24,975 nucleotides of DNA from the IMG/VR virus record IMGVR_UViG_3300025727_000050, positions 1 to 24,975 of that record; one strand, written 5' to 3'. The stretch's first letter is position 1. Every line of letters begins with the position of its first letter. The stretch comes from a virus. The notes under the pieces are model-generated. The model had not been told where the DNA came from. It did no database searches and was given only the letters and a program-made list of their open reading frames with translations. The position numbers were made by a program, and so were the translations under genes. Below, in pieces: positions 3,385-24,862 of this stretch.

Positions 3385-4176
3385 ATGGCAGAATATAAAA
3401 GAAATTGTCCAACTTGTAATAAAAAATTAACTTATACAAGTACGTCTGGATATACTTATTCAAATAAAATAAATTCTAATTGCAATTCGTGTTCTCACAT
3501 TGGAAAAATGAAAATTTTAAATGAAAAAAAATATGAGAGATTTTGTCCAAAATGTATTGTGGAAGTTTTACATACTACCAAATATAGACGAGACTTAGCA
3601 ATCAAAAATGAAAGTTTGTGTAGGAGTTGCTCACAGAAAGGTAGAATTTTATCTGAAGATCATATAAAAAATATAAGTATATCAATGTCTGGAAAAAATA
3701 ATCCATTTTATGGAAAGAAACGTCCAGAATTTAGTAAATTAAGAATGGGTCATGAAGTGAGTAACGAAACAAGAAAAAAATTAAGTATTGCAAATACTGG
3801 AAACATTCATACAGAAAAAACAAAGAAAAAACAAAGAATATCTGCCATAAGAAGAATTGAACGAACTGAATTAAATGGAGGTCAATTGATACCAAACTAC
3901 AACCCAGACGCCTGTAAAATAATAGAAAACTACGGAAAAGAAAACGGCTACAACTTCCAACACGCAGAAAATGGTGGTGAAGTAAGAATAGGTGGATATT
4001 ATCCAGATGGATTAGATGAAAATAGAAAAACAATTATAGAAGTTGATGAAAGTCATCATTTTAAGAATGGTGAATTAAGAAAGAAGGATATAAAACGACA
4101 AACATATCTTGAAAGTTTAGGATATGATGTTATACGAATTAAATTAAATAGGAGTAATATAAGTTATGGCAGATAA
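3385..4176 (+). CDS. Homing endonuclease: zinc fingers, NUMOD3 and Vsr/EDxHD-like nuclease domain
   Basis: 263 residues. Two CxxC-CxxC zinc ribbons come first (C8/C11 with C33/C36; C54/C57 with C79/C82). NUMOD3-like repeats (about 84-150, SEDHIKNISISMSGKNNPFYG) follow. The C-terminal nuclease has IPNYNPDACKIIENYG, HAENGGEV, YYPDGLDENRKTIIEVDESHH and ends GYDVIRIKL. The D-x(n)-E-V-D-x-x-H-H arrangement resembles the Vsr-like EDxHD homing endonucleases. The gene sits exactly between terminase and portal. Its last codons are formed by the portal RBS (GGAG, 4151-4154), and it overlaps the portal by 11 bases. The segment around 3885-3975 is visibly richer in C (AAC, TAC, TTC codons) than the N-terminal half, hinting at a domain fusion. 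Confidence 0.85.
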   Translation: MAEYKRNCPTCNKKLTYTSTSGYTYSNKINSNCNSCSHIGKMKILNEKKYERFCPKCIVEVLHTTKYRRDLAIKNESLCRSCSQKGRILSEDHIKNISISMSGKNNPFYGKKRPEFSKLRMGHEVSNETRKKLSIANTGNIHTEKTKKKQRISAIRRIERTELNGGQLIPNYNPDACKIIENYGKENGYNFQHAENGGEVRIGGYYPDGLDENRKTIIEVDESHHFKNGELRKKDIKRQTYLESLGYDVIRIKLNRSNISYGR

Positions 4177-8621: not shown

Positions 8622-8948
8622 GTGATAAAATTAAAAAAATTAATAAACGAAAGTACACCTGGATTCACAAAAAGAAAATTTGGTGATCCACTTCCAACAC
8701 TTGAAGATGTAATGAAACAACATCAAGAAAGTAAATTACAAGAAGATTGGTGGGATGATTTAGATAGAGCAGACCAACCAACTTACACTAAATCTCATTC
8801 AACAAGACAAAAAGTACAGGATGCTAAGGTAGACGATGGTGCTGAAATCACAGTAAACGGAAAACAATACAGATCAATTACAGAATCAAAAAAATCAAGT
8901 TACAATTTCACGGAATTACATGATAGAATTATCAATAGGAGAATATAA
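8622..8948 (+). CDS. Small protein with LINE leader and PGFT/GDPLPTL module
   Basis: 108 residues, GTG start at 8622 with GGAG at 8611-8614. The ten-residue leader MIKLKKLINE is the same length and plan as the T4 internal-protein targeting sequence (ten residues ending aliphatic-x-Glu). The PGFTKRKFGDPLPTLEDVMK module (8658-8723) follows at once. A more variable tail (about 45-108) contains QEDWWDDLDRAD and VNGKQYRSITESK. It ends with an ATAATG overlap to the gp21 protease gene, so the two are probably co-translated. Confidence 0.65.
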   Translation: MIKLKKLINESTPGFTKRKFGDPLPTLEDVMKQHQESKLQEDWWDDLDRADQPTYTKSHSTRQKVQDAKVDDGAEITVNGKQYRSITESKKSSYNFTELHDRIINRRI

Positions 8949-9562
8949 TGAGTAATAGGCAGTTGATTGTCGATTATCTCCCGTTTGAAATTTCACGGGA
9001 ACAAATAACTGAATCACTAAAAACTAATCAGGGTCGTCTCGTAGTGCATGGAGTATTACAGCGAGCAGATGCAAAAAACCAGAATGGTAGAGTTTATCCA
9101 GGCAAGATATTAGCTCGTGAAGCAACGAAATATTCTGAAGGATTTATTAATCAAAAACGAGCAATGGGTGAATTAGACCATCCAGAATCATCCGTGGTAA
9201 ATTTACAAAATGTATCTCACAATATTACTGAAATGCATTGGGAAGGAAAAAACTTAGTAGGAACAGTAGAAGTATTAGGGACACCATCAGGAAATATTCT
9301 AACGGAATTATTTAAGGCAGGAATAAAATTAGGTATTTCGTCAAGAGGTATGGGTTCAGTAGAACCACTAAAGGAGGGTGATGGTCAACAAGTAGGAGAT
9401 GATTTTGAGTTAATTGCATTTGATTTTGTCAGTAATCCAAGCACACACGGTGCATTTTTATATCCACTTAAAGAAGGAGTAGAGAAAGTAGAAGATGGTA
9501 GAACGTGTAACAAATACTGTAAAGTAGAAGAAATTATTAACGACATTATTAGAGGAGAGTAA
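8948..9562 (+). CDS. gp21: Prohead core protease (T4 gp21-like serine protease)
   Basis: 204 residues, close to T4 gp21 (212). A herpesvirus-type serine protease fold is expected. The catalytic His is in AMGELDHPESS (H78) and the catalytic Ser in LGISSRGMG (S131/S132); LIAFDFVSNPSTHGAF is the conserved downstream strand. In T4 this enzyme matures the prohead by cutting scaffold, capsid and internal proteins after (L/I)xE. This window contains a large set of candidate substrates with that motif, flanking the gene on both sides. Its own ends (EQITESL near the start, a Glu-rich C-terminus) could be self-cleavage sites. ATG 8948 is preceded by AGGAG at 8937-8941. Confidence 0.93.
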   Translation: MSNRQLIVDYLPFEISREQITESLKTNQGRLVVHGVLQRADAKNQNGRVYPGKILAREATKYSEGFINQKRAMGELDHPESSVVNLQNVSHNITEMHWEGKNLVGTVEVLGTPSGNILTELFKAGIKLGISSRGMGSVEPLKEGDGQQVGDDFELIAFDFVSNPSTHGAFLYPLKEGVEKVEDGRTCNKYCKVEEIINDIIRGE

Positions 9563-15133: not shown

Positions 15134-15143
15134 TATATTTATA
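15134..15143 (+). promoter_or_regulatory. Candidate late promoter motif TATATTTATA
   Basis: This is the same 10-mer as at 6040 and 17344, placed 22 bases before the 15166 start in a 35-base intergenic gap. It supports a separate transcript start for the core protein and bS21 genes. It is not proven. Confidence 0.35.
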
Positions 15144-15165: not shown

Positions 15166-15804
15166 ATGAGAAAAAAGAAAAAATTAAACGAAGCAATAGG
15201 TGGAATGGTATCCCGTTCAGCATTTGGTGGACTATACAAAAATGTTCCAACTTCAACTTCATTAAAATCAATAGTAGAAGATATTTACGGACAGGATCAA
15301 AAATTTGACGCAAATGGATTTATGAGTGAAGTCTCTAAATTTAACACTTATGGTGTCCAAATTCATAGAGAAGGAAATCTTAAAGAATTAGCAGTAAAAC
15401 TTTCCAGACTTGCAGAAACAGCAAAACAACACACTCTACAAGAAACTGATGACTGGTTCGATAAGGTTACTGTATCCAGAAATATGAAAGAACTAACAGG
15501 TCTTTCAGGTCAGTTTAAAAAGGTGGCAAGTGAAGCACAATCTCTACAAGAAAGAATGAGTGGTCTATATGAAGACATGGGCCACATTCTTGGTAGATAT
15601 TATGAAATTAATGAAGATTGTGATGGTGACCATGATAACTTAGACGAAATAGATTCAGTCAAAGAGGGAACGTATCAGGTCTTTTTTAATTCTGCAATGA
15701 AAAAATTTGGAGTATCTTCACCAGATGAATTAGATGATGAAGAAAAAGTGAAATTTTTTAATTACGTGGATAAAAACTATTCTGCAGAAAACGAAACAGA
15801 TTAA
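15166..15804 (+). CDS. Putative prohead core / head-internal protein
   Basis: 212 residues, ATG 15166 with AGGAG at 15152-15156. The leader is very short, MRKKKKLNE, then AIGGMVSRSAFGGLYKN. This LNE site followed by an A-rich/G-rich start resembles core proteins of marine T4-like phages. The middle (about 60-150) is helical coiled coil with many ExLxxR repeats. After YEINEDCDGDHDNLDEIDSV and VKE comes a C-terminal unit, FFNSAMKKFGVSSPDELDDE, then EEKVKFFNYVDKNY. I recognise this unit as a recurrent C-terminal module on many phage proteins. A role in core assembly is inferred. Confidence 0.65.
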   Translation: MRKKKKLNEAIGGMVSRSAFGGLYKNVPTSTSLKSIVEDIYGQDQKFDANGFMSEVSKFNTYGVQIHREGNLKELAVKLSRLAETAKQHTLQETDDWFDKVTVSRNMKELTGLSGQFKKVASEAQSLQERMSGLYEDMGHILGRYYEINEDCDGDHDNLDEIDSVKEGTYQVFFNSAMKKFGVSSPDELDDEEKVKFFNYVDKNYSAENETD

Positions 15805-15824
15805 AACATCATAAGAGGTAATAA

Positions 15825-16091
15825 ATGTTACAAGTAAAAGTAAAGAATAACAACGTAGAATACGCACTGCGATTATTAAAACGTAAAGTAAAAGAAAGTG
15901 GTCTATTGATAGAATTAAGAGAAAGAGAATACTACAAAAAACCATCCGCAAAAAGAGCAGCACAGAAAAAATTAGGTAAAGTTCGTAATTGGATGGCCCA
16001 ACAAAAATTAAATCCAGATTGGTGTGGAGAACCACCCACAAGTGGATTAAAAGAAAAAATTAAAAAAGAAAAAATACTTTATAAAAAATAA
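15825..16091 (+). CDS. rpsU: Phage-encoded ribosomal protein bS21 homologue
   Basis: 88 residues. Residues 1-55 match the bS21 family closely: VKVKNNNVEYALRLLKRKV, ESGLLIELREREYYKKPSAK and RAAQKKLGKVR line up with the cellular pattern (ALRRFKRxxEKAGVLxExRRREFYEKPT). It keeps the basic helices that contact 16S rRNA near the anti-Shine-Dalgarno end. A C-terminal extension (about 56-88, WMAQQKLNPDWCGEPPTSG then Lys-rich) is unlike the bacterial protein. Phage-borne bS21 is known from metagenomic and cultured phages and is thought to enter host ribosomes and favour phage mRNAs. Here it closes the head-core operon, directly before a terminator. RBS AGAGGT at 15813-15818. Confidence 0.88.
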   Translation: MLQVKVKNNNVEYALRLLKRKVKESGLLIELREREYYKKPSAKRAAQKKLGKVRNWMAQQKLNPDWCGEPPTSGLKEKIKKEKILYKK

Positions 16092-16126
16092 TGGAATACT
16101 AAAATAAAAATAATTAGATAATACCA

Positions 16127-16152
16127 GGGAAGTGTAAAAACTTCCCTTTTTT
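16127..16152 (+). terminator. Rho-independent terminator after the bS21 gene
   Basis: GGGAAG (16127-16132), loop TGTAAAAA, CTTCCC (16141-16146) and a run of six T. It lies 35 bases after the bS21 stop and ends the head-core transcription unit. Confidence 0.8.
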
Positions 16153-16245: not shown

Positions 16246-17325
16246 ATGAGAAATGCTCAATTTAAAAATACATGGAATGGAATAATTAACAATAGATTCA
16301 ATGATGAGGTGGTTATATTAGACGAGAACGATGCATCTTTTAGGGGTGTGGATAGTACATATAAATTTAAATGCACAGTCTGTAAGGGTGAATTTGATAG
16401 TAATTTGATTTGCAAACAAATCCCGAGATGTTTAAAATGCTATCCATTAAAATCTGGTCAATCTAAAGGTGAAAATGAAATAGTCATTTTTTTAAAAAGA
16501 GAAATTCCAAACATAAAAGTTATACAGCGGGATAGGATATTATTATGTGGGAAGGAAGTAGATATTTATTTACCAGATTATAATATAGCAATAGAATTTA
16601 ATGGGATTTACTATCACGGTGAAAAATTTGGAAAATATAAAAATTACCACTTGGATAAGACGAAATTATGCAATAAAATTGGAGTAGATTTGATCCATAT
16701 ATTTGATATTGAATGGAATGATAAACGGGATATTGTTAAGTCGTTATTATTGAATAGGTTGAATAATACAAAACGAGTGATATATGCTCGCAAATGTAAA
16801 ATAAAACAGCTATCTTCTACAGAATCTAATAATTTTTTAATGAAAAATCATTTACAAGGCATAGCAAAATCCTCAGTAAAATATGGGTTATATTATGAAA
16901 ATGAGTTAGTATCTGTAATGACATTTTCAAAATCAAGATATTCAAAAAAATATAATTATGAAATTGTTAGAATGGCAAATAAATTAAACACTTCTGTTGT
17001 AGGTGGATTTCAAAAACTTTTTAAAGTATTTAATACTGAAATATTAAAAGATACTGAATCGGTAGTATCATATAGTGATATAAGATTTTTTACTGGATCA
17101 ATTTACGAAAAATTGAAATTTAGTTTTTTACATAAATCAAGTCCAAATTATTTTTACCGAAAGTCTCATAATTTATATTCCAGACTTCAATTTCAAAAAC
17201 ATAAATTAAAATTAAAATTAAAAACTTTTGACGATAAATTAACCGAATGGCAAAATATGAAAATAAATGGATATGACCGTATATGGGACTGTGGAAACAA
17301 TACATTTATTTTCCAACCAAAATGA
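16246..17325 (+). CDS. Homing endonuclease with zinc ribbon and PD-(D/E)XK/Vsr-like nuclease core, 5'-truncated
   Basis: 359 residues from ATG 16246. A zinc ribbon (C43/C46 and C62/C65) precedes the nuclease core GENEIVIFLKREIPNIKVI ... GKEVDIYLPDYNIAIEFNGI, YYHGEKFG ... HLDKTKLCNKIGVDLIHIFD. Probable catalytic residues are E104/D106 and E117. A long C-terminal half (about 175-359, VIYARKCKIKQLS ... GLYYENELVSVMTFSKSRYS) is a conserved accessory domain in such phage nucleases. No RBS is visible before the ATG, and homologous coding continues upstream without a start, so expression is doubtful. It separates bS21 from the scaffold gene, a typical mobile-gene position. Confidence 0.75.
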   Translation: MRNAQFKNTWNGIINNRFNDEVVILDENDASFRGVDSTYKFKCTVCKGEFDSNLICKQIPRCLKCYPLKSGQSKGENEIVIFLKREIPNIKVIQRDRILLCGKEVDIYLPDYNIAIEFNGIYYHGEKFGKYKNYHLDKTKLCNKIGVDLIHIFDIEWNDKRDIVKSLLLNRLNNTKRVIYARKCKIKQLSSTESNNFLMKNHLQGIAKSSVKYGLYYENELVSVMTFSKSRYSKKYNYEIVRMANKLNTSVVGGFQKLFKVFNTEILKDTESVVSYSDIRFFTGSIYEKLKFSFLHKSSPNYFYRKSHNLYSRLQFQKHKLKLKLKTFDDKLTEWQNMKINGYDRIWDCGNNTFIFQPK

Positions 17326-17343: not shown

Positions 17344-17490
17344 TATATTTATAGTTATAACAAAATACATCATTCAATCGAATATGATGTACCTGATAAT
17401 GTAAACCACATTAAAGTTCCTAATAACTTTATTAAATCCAAAAAATACATAATGTAATTTGATTTGTCATAACGGCAAATTATATTTATT
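17344..17490 (+). promoter_or_regulatory. Intergenic region with two candidate late promoter boxes before the scaffold gene
   Basis: TATATTTATA at 17344-17353 and TATATTTATT at 17481-17490; the second is 20 bases before the scaffold ATG and the better placed. Between them is a short open stretch (17338 to about 17457) with no start codon, possibly a gene remnant. I see nothing else in this 184-base gap. Confidence 0.4.
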
Positions 17491-17509: not shown

Positions 17510-18793
17510 ATGGATGACTTATTAAAAGACGCAATAGCAGACGCTAAAGCAGTTAGAGAAACAGCACTTGCAAACGCTAAAATCGCTCTTGAAGAAGCTT
17601 TCACTCCTCGTATCCAATCAATGCTTTCACAGAAGATTCAATCTGAAATGGAAGGTGAAGAAGAAGTAGATGGTGAAGAACCTGAAGCAGAAGAAGCACC
17701 AGAAATCGCAGTTGAACCTGAAGTGGGTGAACCAGAAGCAGAATTTGCAGAAGACGACATTGACCCAACTGATGAATTTTCAGAAGAACCAGCAGGTGAA
17801 GAACCCGCAGGTGAAGAAGAATTTGAAGTTGAAGAAGATGAAGAATTTGGTGAAGAACCTGTAGCAGATGAAGCAGAAGGTGATGTAATTGAAATTAACG
17901 GTGTTAAATATGCACCAATAGTTTCTGAGGAAGATGAAGAAGCATTAGACGAACCTGAATTTGAAGAAGACGGTGAGGAAGATGAACTTGATCTTGAAGC
18001 AATTCTTCGTGAATTGGAAGATGATGAAGAAGAACTCGAAGAAGAATATCACGAAGGTGAAACCGGTGACGGTCTTGATTCTTCTGAAGTTGAAACAGCT
18101 GATGAGGCTGAATTGGCAGAGGACTTACAGGATTCTTCCGGGATTGGAGCAGGAGATAACAAAGTTGATGACGATTCAAATGACTCATCTGATACAGGGG
18201 CACAAGGCCCTGAAGGTGAAGGCAGTGATGCTGAAGCTGGTAAAGAAGATGATAACCTTGAAGTAGTTGATGACTTAGTTGAAGTCAATGGTGTTAAATA
18301 CTCACCTATATCTGAAGATGATGAATATGATGAAGAAGACATTGACCTTGAAGAAATCTTGAGAGCACTTTCAGAAGGTGATGATGAGGCTGAAGAAGAA
18401 GAATCAGCAGTAGCTGAACTTAAATCAGTCAAATCTGATCTTAAAGAGCATCGCGATGTAGTTAAGTATCTACGTAGTAAATTGAATGAAGTAAATTTAC
18501 TTAATGCTAAACTTTTGTTTACTAACAAATTATTCCGTTCATACGGTTTAAATAATAATCAAAAGTTAAAAGTAGTAGAAACTTTCGACAGAGCAAGGAA
18601 CCTTAGAGAAGTTAAGTTGGTATTTTCAACATTAGCAGAATCTTTCGGTAACACGCCAAGCAAGACAACAATTAAAGAGAGTAAAGGCTCAGCTTCTAAA
18701 GCAGTAGCTTCTACCAAACCTAAATCCAAAAAAGTAATTGGTGAGGGATTTGATATGAAGAAACGTTTCCAGAAGTTAGCTAATATTCTGTAA
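17510..18793 (+). CDS. gp22: Prohead scaffolding core protein (T4 gp22-like), acidic, internally duplicated
   Basis: 427 residues from ATG 17510 (AGGAG at 17497-17501); an upstream frame start at 17459 is ignored because it lacks an RBS. The N-terminal helix (1-50, LLKDAIADAKAVRETALANA) and C-terminal helical part (about 300-427, including YLRSKLNEVNLLNAKLLFTN) are typical of T4-like scaffold proteins. The middle 250 residues are extremely rich in Glu/Asp. Two units in the acidic part resemble each other: VIEINGVKYAPIVSEEDE ... LDLEAILRELEDD (126-173) and LVEVNGVKYSPISEDDE ... IDLEEILRALSEGD (257-290). Candidate gp21 sites include KLNE (324-327) and the IGE near 410. Its position just before the capsid gene matches T4. 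Confidence 0.9.
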   Translation: MDDLLKDAIADAKAVRETALANAKIALEEAFTPRIQSMLSQKIQSEMEGEEEVDGEEPEAEEAPEIAVEPEVGEPEAEFAEDDIDPTDEFSEEPAGEEPAGEEEFEVEEDEEFGEEPVADEAEGDVIEINGVKYAPIVSEEDEEALDEPEFEEDGEEDELDLEAILRELEDDEEELEEEYHEGETGDGLDSSEVETADEAELAEDLQDSSGIGAGDNKVDDDSNDSSDTGAQGPEGEGSDAEAGKEDDNLEVVDDLVEVNGVKYSPISEDDEYDEEDIDLEEILRALSEGDDEAEEEESAVAELKSVKSDLKEHRDVVKYLRSKLNEVNLLNAKLLFTNKLFRSYGLNNNQKLKVVETFDRARNLREVKLVFSTLAESFGNTPSKTTIKESKGSASKAVASTKPKSKKVIGEGFDMKKRFQKLANIL

Positions 18794-18833: not shown

Positions 18834-20474
18834 ATGGCAGACAATTTAACATCCATCGAGCAATTGATGGGTAGCTATGATTCCCAACGTAGTCGTTTAG
18901 CTGAAACCCAAAAGTTAGTCAGTAAGTGGGAACCTACTGGTTTACTTGAAGGAATCGACCAAGAAAATCAAATTCACGGAATGGCAGTTCTTCTTGAAAA
19001 CCAAGCTCGTCAGTTGATTGATGAATCATCAAAAACTGGTACAGCTTCGAATTCAGAAGAGTGGTCAGGTGTGGCGTTACCTTTGGTACGTCGTATCTTT
19101 GGTGAATTGGCAGCACAGGACTTTGTTTCTGTTCAACCAATGAACCTTCCAAGTGGACTTATTTTCTACCTTGATTTCAAATACGGTACAGCTCAAACAG
19201 CTCAACATACGTCAGGATTCGACATACACGGTAACACTTCAGCTTCCAACGCAGACGCAAGTGGTGGTTTATATGGTGCAGGTAAATTTGGATATTCAGT
19301 GAATGACCAGCAAGTTCTCGTTGTGAGTGCAAGCATAACCGCAGCTTCCGCTTCATGGAAAGAAGTTGAGTTCGAACCTTCATTGAGTTCGTCTATTGCA
19401 ACGACAGCATCTGATCAAATAGTTAAGTTCACTATTGAAAAGGCTGACATTAACGCAGCAGCCGATTGGGAAGGTATTCGTGCATTTACAGTAAGTGGTT
19501 CGGATGTTTCCGACTATTATCCAGCATATTCATATACCACAGGACCCTTAGCAACAGACGAAGCAGTCTTTTTTGTTAAGTGTACTAATGGTCAATTTGC
19601 TGGTACAGATGTAGGTATTGCATACCACAAAGCACCAACTGATATTACTCGTGGTGACTTTGAACAAAGTTCATTTACAACACCAGCTCCAAGTACTGCT
19701 GATGATGTAGATATTCCAGAAATTGACATTCAACTACGTTCAGTTAGCATCGTTGCTAAAACACGTAAATTGAAAGCAATTTGGACACCTGAGTTAGCTC
19801 AAGATCTTAACGCTTACCATAGTGTTGATGCAGAAGCAGAATTGACTTCAATGTTATCAGAATATATCTCAATGGAAATTGATTTAGAAATTCTTGATAT
19901 GTTGAAACAGAATGCAGACGCAAGAACAGAATACTGGTCAGCAAAAGTTGGTTTCGAGTTTAATTCAACTACTAACCTATTTAGTGAAGTAAGTGGTAAC
20001 TCCAATGCTTACACTAAAGGTGAATGGTTCCAGACACTTGGAAACAAACTACAAGCTGTAAGTAACACAATCCATCAGAAAACTCTACGTGGTGGTGCTA
20101 ATTTCATGGTGATTTCACCTGAAACAGCAACTATCATTGAAAGTATTCCTGGATACGCAGCAGACACAGACGGCGACGCAATGAAAAACTCTTACGCAAT
20201 GGGCGTACAGAAAGTAGGTGCGTTGAATAACAGATACACAGTTTATAAGAACCCTTATATGTTAGAAAATGACATTTTAATGGGATTCCGTGGAAGTAAC
20301 TTCCTCGAAACTGGAGCTGTATATGCACCGTATGTTCCGTTAATCATGACACCATTGGTTTACGATCCGGTTAACTTTACTCCCCGTAAGGGCGTAATGA
20401 CCAGATATGCTAAAAAAATGGTGAGGCCCGAATTTTACGGAAAAGTCATCGTCGCAGATGTCAATTACGTTTAA
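18834..20474 (+). CDS. gp23: Major capsid protein (T4 gp23-like)
   Basis: 546 residues; T4 gp23 has 521. The N-terminal region ends at a clear prohead-protease site, NQARQLIDE then SSKTG, with cleavage expected after E64; T4 gp23 is cut after residue 65. Conserved HK97-fold segments follow: EEWSGVALPLVRRIFGELAA, VQPMNLPSGLIFYLDFKYGT, IDIQLRSVSIVAKTRKLKAI, WTPELAQDLNAYHSVDAEAE, and near the end FTPRKGVMTRYAKKMVRPEF. Region about 120-270 is a Ser/Thr/Ala-rich insertion-type domain. AGGAG at 18822-18826. A small inverted repeat (CGTAA/TTACG, 18805-18818) lies just before the RBS. Confidence 0.97.
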   Translation: MADNLTSIEQLMGSYDSQRSRLAETQKLVSKWEPTGLLEGIDQENQIHGMAVLLENQARQLIDESSKTGTASNSEEWSGVALPLVRRIFGELAAQDFVSVQPMNLPSGLIFYLDFKYGTAQTAQHTSGFDIHGNTSASNADASGGLYGAGKFGYSVNDQQVLVVSASITAASASWKEVEFEPSLSSSIATTASDQIVKFTIEKADINAAADWEGIRAFTVSGSDVSDYYPAYSYTTGPLATDEAVFFVKCTNGQFAGTDVGIAYHKAPTDITRGDFEQSSFTTPAPSTADDVDIPEIDIQLRSVSIVAKTRKLKAIWTPELAQDLNAYHSVDAEAELTSMLSEYISMEIDLEILDMLKQNADARTEYWSAKVGFEFNSTTNLFSEVSGNSNAYTKGEWFQTLGNKLQAVSNTIHQKTLRGGANFMVISPETATIIESIPGYAADTDGDAMKNSYAMGVQKVGALNNRYTVYKNPYMLENDILMGFRGSNFLETGAVYAPYVPLIMTPLVYDPVNFTPRKGVMTRYAKKMVRPEFYGKVIVADVNYV

Positions 20475-23944: not shown

Positions 23945-24862
23945 ATGAAAAAGACACTATTAACCATACTATCACTTTTACTGATTGTTGGGTGTTCCCA
24001 AAAACCAGTAGATGAAACCACATTGATTGAAAAAGATGGTGTGATGTATTTACCTGATTCTGATTCACCGTATAGTGGTGAGGTATTCACTAATTATTCA
24101 AGTGGTGAAAAAGAATATCAAGGAACTTATGAGAATGGATTATTAGTTACATATTCTTATTTGAATAAAGATGGGAGTGTGAAAGAACCAGTCAATATGG
24201 AAACCTTAATTGATCGTGGTGGAAATTTATTTGAGATTAATGGACAAAAACCATATACTGGTGATGTTTTTGAATTGTATGATAATGGAAATAGAAAACT
24301 TTCTGGAATACTTAAAGGTGGAAAATTGGTTAGTCGAACAGAGTGGGATTATTATAAAAATGGACAAAAACATGAGGAATGGACTTATAAAAAAGGTGTT
24401 TTAGATGGATTATACGTTATATGGTATAAAAACGGACAAAAACAGTATCAGGTGGAATATATCGACGGGAAAGAAATTGATTCTTTTGATACTTGGAATG
24501 AAGACGGTGAAATAATGGTGAAAAATGGGACTGGATTAAATATTTGGTTCCATGAAAATGGACAAAAAAGTGTTAAAACTACATTTATTAATGGTAAAAA
24601 AGATGGACCATCCACTCAATGGTATGAAGATGGACAGATAAAATCTGAAGAAACTTACAAGGATGGGAAAAATGATGGATTAGTTACTTGGTGGTATGAA
24701 AATGGACAAATGGAACAAGAAGTCACTTACAAGGATGGGGAATTCGATGGAAAATTGGAAGGGTGGGATGAGAATGGACAGAAACGGTTGGAAAAAACTT
24801 ACAAGGATGGGAATCAGATTTCTTCCAAATGTTGGGATGAAGAGGGAAATGAATGTGAATGA
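23945..24862 (+). CDS. Phage-encoded lipoprotein with MORN/YwqK-like repeats
   Basis: 305 residues. Lipoprotein signal MKKTLLTILSLLLIVGCSQK with lipobox LIVGC (Cys 17). The mature protein has a duplicated unit (LIEKDGVMYLPDSDSPYSGE and LIDRGGNLFEINGQKPYTGD). About seven to nine repeats of the form WYxNGQxxxExxYKDGxxDG follow, the MORN-variant pattern found in bacterial YwqK-type proteins. The sequence acttacaaggatggg is repeated in DNA (near 24653, 24725, 24797). Such lipoproteins are typical of FCB-group bacteria, so this may be host-derived. The function on a phage (surface masking, exclusion) is unknown. RBS AAGGAG at 23932-23937. Confidence 0.85.
   Translation: MKKTLLTILSLLLIVGCSQKPVDETTLIEKDGVMYLPDSDSPYSGEVFTNYSSGEKEYQGTYENGLLVTYSYLNKDGSVKEPVNMETLIDRGGNLFEINGQKPYTGDVFELYDNGNRKLSGILKGGKLVSRTEWDYYKNGQKHEEWTYKKGVLDGLYVIWYKNGQKQYQVEYIDGKEIDSFDTWNEDGEIMVKNGTGLNIWFHENGQKSVKTTFINGKKDGPSTQWYEDGQIKSEETYKDGKNDGLVTWWYENGQMEQEVTYKDGEFDGKLEGWDENGQKRLEKTYKDGNQISSKCWDEEGNECE

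Follow-up and report, generated by a model that had tools for sequence, protein, structure and literature searches.

A bS21 homologue with a conserved C-terminal tail in the head-gene cluster of an aquatic T4-like phage

Of the ribosomal proteins encoded by phages, bS21 is the commonest, and the gene described here raises the question of what such a protein does for a virus that places it among its head genes and gives it an unusual C-terminus. It lies on the plus strand at positions 15,825–16,091 of a 24,975-nucleotide virus record (IMG/VR IMGVR_UViG_3300025727_000050), analysed at its full length and called the window below, and is the only bS21 gene in it. A preliminary description of this DNA had suggested that the protein could retune initiation toward strong Shine–Dalgarno (SD) sites. 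Here we consider its identity, position, tail and probable host before returning to that suggestion.

Family identity of the gene product

The 88-residue product (MLQVKVKNNNVEYALRLLKRKVKESGLLIELREREYYKKPSAKRAAQKKLGKVRNWMAQQKLNPDWCGEPPTSGLKEKIKKEKILYKK) matches PF01165 (Ribosomal_S21) in Pfam over residues 3–49 (E = 2e-13; 50.1 bits against a cut-off of 27; model positions 1–48 of 55), phrog_21469 in PHROG, and 38 PDB sequences, nearly all of them bS21. Residues 36–41 read YYKKPS, in keeping with a family motif that ends Y..KPS, and the gene is preceded by the SD site AGAGGT (15,814–15,819, plus strand; −7.2 kcal/mol to the anti-SD). The sequence search that could have refuted the family assignment returns bS21, and judged on these matches the identity is beyond chance. 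The division of the protein into residues 1–55 and about 33 extra residues holds in comparison with the short bS21s in the PDB (52–58 residues), but only about 17 residues exceed the 71 of the Escherichia coli protein.

Position in the head-gene cluster

The neighbours are T4-like: TerL, the gp20 portal, the S77 prohead core protease gp21 (8,948–9,562, plus strand; PF03420, E = 1e-25) and the major capsid protein (MCP) gp23 (18,834–20,474, plus strand; PF07068, E = 7e-78). Directly upstream of bS21 is a 212-residue head-core gene (15,166–15,804, plus strand), which stands beside bS21 in relatives too, and further downstream is an acidic scaffold-position gene (17,510–18,793, plus strand), whose start was assigned from a conserved MDDLLK and an SD. 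Loci bearing the extension share the order protease, core genes, 212-residue core gene, bS21, scaffold and MCP. A homing endonuclease gene (16,246–17,325, plus strand; phrog_3339, E = 1e-104) separates bS21 from the scaffold leader in the window and is missing from the bS21–scaffold spacer in most relatives; a second such gene lies at 3385–4176, and both are in the head-gene cluster.

Of the 48 window-type MCP loci that have 3 kb or more of upstream sequence, 47 carry bS21 in this slot, and the slot is common to Microcystis phage Mel-JY01 (PP395634; L142) and the 484-kb phage LR756508. Mel-JY01, whose TerL and MCP are 53–55% identical to those of the window, likewise carries the gene between protease and scaffold/MCP, in the same orientation, and has strong SDs, but its 75-residue bS21 (RpsU) is without the WCGEPPT tail. 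Flavobacterium phage immuto has the same operon without bS21, and since related immuto-type phages lack the gene there, bS21 appears dispensable for the head module itself.

A box, TATATTTATA, occurs four times on the plus strand (6040, 15,134, 17,344 and 23,431) where 0.5 occurrences are expected. Three of the copies sit in gaps immediately ahead of head genes, and a form of the box precedes the core gene in 25 of 50 relatives versus 2.8% of random stretches. It is likely a phage late promoter element, and the copy at 15,134–15,143 probably serves the unit of core gene and bS21. A terminator-like hairpin (16,126–16,147, plus strand) follows bS21 and precedes the homing endonuclease gene; relatives have no such hairpin at this place, the scaffold leader coming directly after bS21. 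The succession of promoter-like box, core gene, bS21 and hairpin makes “the end of the head-core operon” a fair description. The late-operon position noted earlier holds, but it is not notable, as such placement is a published rule, with bS21 no more than ten genes away from core structural genes in 388 of 900 phages that carry it (Chen 2022, PMC9723584), and it recurs in Mel-JY01. The window gene shows the same proximity to protease, MCP, portal or TerL. Late expression of phage bS21, transcribed together with capsid genes, has been reported in the same study.

Between 7711 and 14,463, many small proteins begin MKITKTQL(R/K)QxI(K/R)EE, have TPGFTKRKFGDPLPTL in common, or repeat ESVNE/ESINE; these repeats could be sites at which the prohead protease cleaves expanded head-core proteins.

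The C-terminal extension

The segment PDWCGEPPTSG singled out in the preliminary description is present at residues 64–74, and the extension is indeed conserved. Its loop, NPDWCGEPPT (codons 63–72; 16,011–16,040, plus strand), is followed by a basic C-terminal helix that varies among relatives (codons 73–88; 16,041–16,088, plus strand). Across 13 distinct proteins (N/D)PDWCGE(P/A)PT is almost invariant in spite of a divergence of about 0.5 at synonymous sites, with pN/pS values of 0.21 (core) and 0.44 (tail). By these measures the core is under strong purifying selection, and the tail is under selection as well, mainly in the loop.

A scan of IMG/VR yielded 92 bS21 relatives, of which 80 were kept; the tail is present in L002–L017. 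A degenerate DNA pattern for the motif hit 23 IMG/VR contigs and added new bS21s. The motif was not found outside bS21: all 14 translated loci have it within bS21, and the remaining 9 contigs were already known bS21 carriers. Among the sequences searched, the tail was found only in one phage subclade. A scan of genome contigs for a cellular source, in which the tail was not used as a search pattern, gave 30 loci, none matching beyond residue 59, and the bS21s of 146 Marinimicrobia genomes match to residue 64 at most, or to residue 69 in one sequence translated past a stop codon.

An AlphaFold model built from 22 sequences, of moderate confidence (pLDDT 81, pTM 0.41), predicts helices at residues 11–25, 27–35, 40–62 and 73–87 with a loop at 63–72, consistent with the two-helix fold of the family; its best PDB fold matches are bS21 chains, though weak. 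PDB 7qg8 was considered as a structure spanning the tail and rejected, its alignment being poor in that region. The protein ends KILYKK, with RLxYKK in several relatives and neither in L014, L084 and L086, so that residues similar to the C-terminal RLY/KLY of Gamma- and Betaproteobacteria are present but not terminal. In a gap-free alignment with the Flavobacterium johnsoniae sequence, Val53 stands opposite Tyr54, but an invariant Trp56 follows one helical turn on. A Tyr aligned with the Bacteroidia Tyr54 occurs in the bS21s of L330/L317, L332, L333 and L075; despite it, L332, L333 and L075 have strong SDs, and L330/L317 do not.

Probable host

A gene for a MORN-like lipoprotein of 305 residues (23,945–24,862, plus strand) provides a host clue. 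Two Marinimicrobia genomes contain genes that match the first 116–127 residues of the product at 67% and 63% identity; the surroundings of these genes appear chromosomal (prepilin peptidase; glmS), and the window gene is likely host-derived. In 296 Bacteroidota genomes the best matches reach 27–43%, mostly over the later repeats, and at the same cut-off there were none in 299 Pseudomonadota genomes. For the MCP, one Marinimicrobia genome among 245 has a relative at 66% identity, whereas 375 Bacteroidota and 378 Pseudomonadota genomes yielded none. These clues point to Marinimicrobia, not Bacteroidota, and we regard Marinimicrobia (SAR406) as the probable host, a judgement kept short of proof by possible binning errors and by the phyla sampled (Marinimicrobia, Bacteroidota and Pseudomonadota).

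Two Marinimicrobia 16S genes end in a normal anti-SD, and SD use across the phylum ranges from none to strong depending on the genome; an apparent avoidance of SDs by SAR406 was an artefact of overlapping short open reading frames (ORFs) and gave way to that range in a cleaner count. Recent acquisition of bS21 from SAR406 was also rejected, as the tree, built on few columns, sets the phage bS21s apart from those of SAR406. A “Neomarinimicrobiota” bS21 (L105) has phage-like genes around it and was set aside.

Shine–Dalgarno use and the retuning question

An SD motif precedes 71% of the 17 window ORFs of at least 150 residues (background 1%), and 51% of 37 hand-listed starts bind the anti-SD better than −5 kcal/mol (background 17%). 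The earlier impression of strong AGGAG sites on nearly all genes was therefore right about their strength and somewhat overstated about their reach. The corresponding motif frequency is 21–26% in the two genomes sharing the lipoprotein, and Marinimicrobia seem to use SDs less than the window phage.

That the phage bS21 retunes the 30S subunit toward strong-SD messages, letting phage mRNAs outcompete those of the host, would fit these figures, and also the finding in F. johnsoniae that loss of the bS21 C-terminal region leads to more use of strong SDs (PMC9976891). The presence of bS21 also tends to coincide with SD use: of 107 loci spanning protease to MCP, 34 have both, 63 neither, 6 bS21 without SDs and 1 SDs without bS21, with 3 undecided. 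By a second method, strong SDs characterize 10/10 extension loci, 24/30 other bS21 loci and 4/66 loci without bS21. On an MCP tree of 97 rows, however, bS21 needs only two changes (one of them a short locus) and SD use three, so the association amounts to about one shared event, and an independent-pairs test was without power. Two lineages, moreover, retain bS21 without SDs. Among the loci with bS21, LR756508/L144, L335/L348 and L337 have no SDs, and L317/L330 have few. Nor did a published comparison find a clear relation between phage S21 tails and ribosome-binding-site consensus (Watson 2020, PMC7550191). Because the link is about one event and some bS21 lineages lack SDs, retuning is not established, and we consider it unlikely. 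The more specific proposal, that the bS21 with the WCGEPPT tail serves as a ribosome component peculiar to the phage and, late in Marinimicrobia infection, alters access to the anti-SD in favour of the phage's strong SDs, strikes us as rather improbable.

Immuto-type phages (L143, L254–L333) have almost no SDs at gene starts, often fewer than background, unlike the clade of the window.

Proposed role and alternatives

The reading we prefer, with reasonable though not high confidence, is that this aquatic T4-like phage encodes a true homologue of bS21 which, made late, most likely swaps for host bS21 on the 30S subunit during capsid production. Synthesis would begin late from the short unit shared with the head-core gene, and the phage protein would replace its host counterpart on 30S subunits already assembled, at the time of capsid protein synthesis. 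The core (residues 3–49) would sit where bS21 normally does, next to the 3′ end of 16S rRNA. The E. coli protein likewise has the bS21 core, followed after helix 2 by a C-terminal tail that runs past the SD helix as far as the 30S head, but it ends with RLY at residue 71, without a WCGEPPT loop or added helix (PMC7550191). By analogy with that path, the phage tail—helix to residue 62, loop NPDWCGEPPT, basic helix 73–87—probably passes the SD:anti-SD duplex toward the head, where it may touch rRNA, mRNA or another protein. Binding of rRNA by the tail is argued from this analogy, since no bacterial bS21 with such a tail was found, and any effect on mRNA choice is one that we infer.

Incorporation of a phage bS21 has a precedent in Pelagibacter phage HTVC008M, whose protein is 52% identical to the window core (residues 2–49, where the match ends) and enters E. 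coli ribosomes (Mizuno 2019, PMC6375957). Those ribosomes reached about 5% of normal synthesis, which might suggest a late poisoning of host translation through ribosomes that work poorly on host mRNAs. The authors of that study allowed that the loss may reflect species mismatch; active ribosomes are needed for late capsid synthesis, and the gene belongs to a capsid-gene unit, so we think poisoning improbable. The place of bS21 amid head-core genes would also suit a protein that has become part of the virion or the head core and is packaged, perhaps to be delivered on infection, and packaging was raised as a possibility by Chen 2022 (PMC9723584); strong purifying selection on the ribosomal core and the ability of related phages to build heads without bS21 make this very improbable.

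A structured leader upstream of the scaffold gene

A two-hairpin leader (17,347–17,440, plus strand) lies upstream of the scaffold gene, separated from bS21 in the window by the homing endonuclease gene. Relatives carry the two hairpins in the bS21–scaffold spacer, and further loci include L271:8889–8972, L199:8718–8811 and dozens more. In 36 leader sequences 14/14 pairs are unbroken, 10 of them changed on both sides. Among 32 distinct sequences outside model building, from immuto-type loci without bS21, all pairs hold and 11/14 have changed on both sides, in an alignment that leans to the model, and slid controls were 21–45% paired. Mel-JY01 gave a weak match ending 13 bases before its own scaffold-position gene. 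No Rfam family matched the leader at gathering score, and sub-threshold Rfam matches near it were rejected. The leader may represent a novel cis-regulatory RNA in T4-like phages, and is a finding separate from bS21 because it occurs in phages without the gene. That bS21 binds it to regulate scaffold/MCP translation might be suggested by its strong structure and its adjoining bS21 in relatives, but is hardly credible given that no fewer than 33 immuto-type loci whose operon lacks bS21 have the leader in the corresponding position.

Comparison with known phage bS21s and significance

A close published parallel is with the Bacteroidetes-infecting huge phages of Chen 2022 (PMC9723584), in which bS21 neighbours TerL, portal, prohead protease and MCP, is reported to be transcribed late, and has C-terminal regions that are conserved within phage clades. 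There, however, bS21 is on the opposite strand, whereas the window gene is co-oriented with the head genes; an aromatic residue takes the Tyr54 position, where the window has Val53 (gap-free) with Trp56 three residues on; the window tail is longer; and the host clues differ.

A phage bS21 in capsid-gene position is thus already known, and the gene is ordinary in both kind and place; what sets the window variant apart is its conserved tail, unusual and plausibly functional. The subclade offers a clear element to remove, the 33-residue tail, with nearby phages that have a short bS21 or none as controls. That carrying bS21 and using SDs can come apart is also relevant to the main hypothesis in the field.
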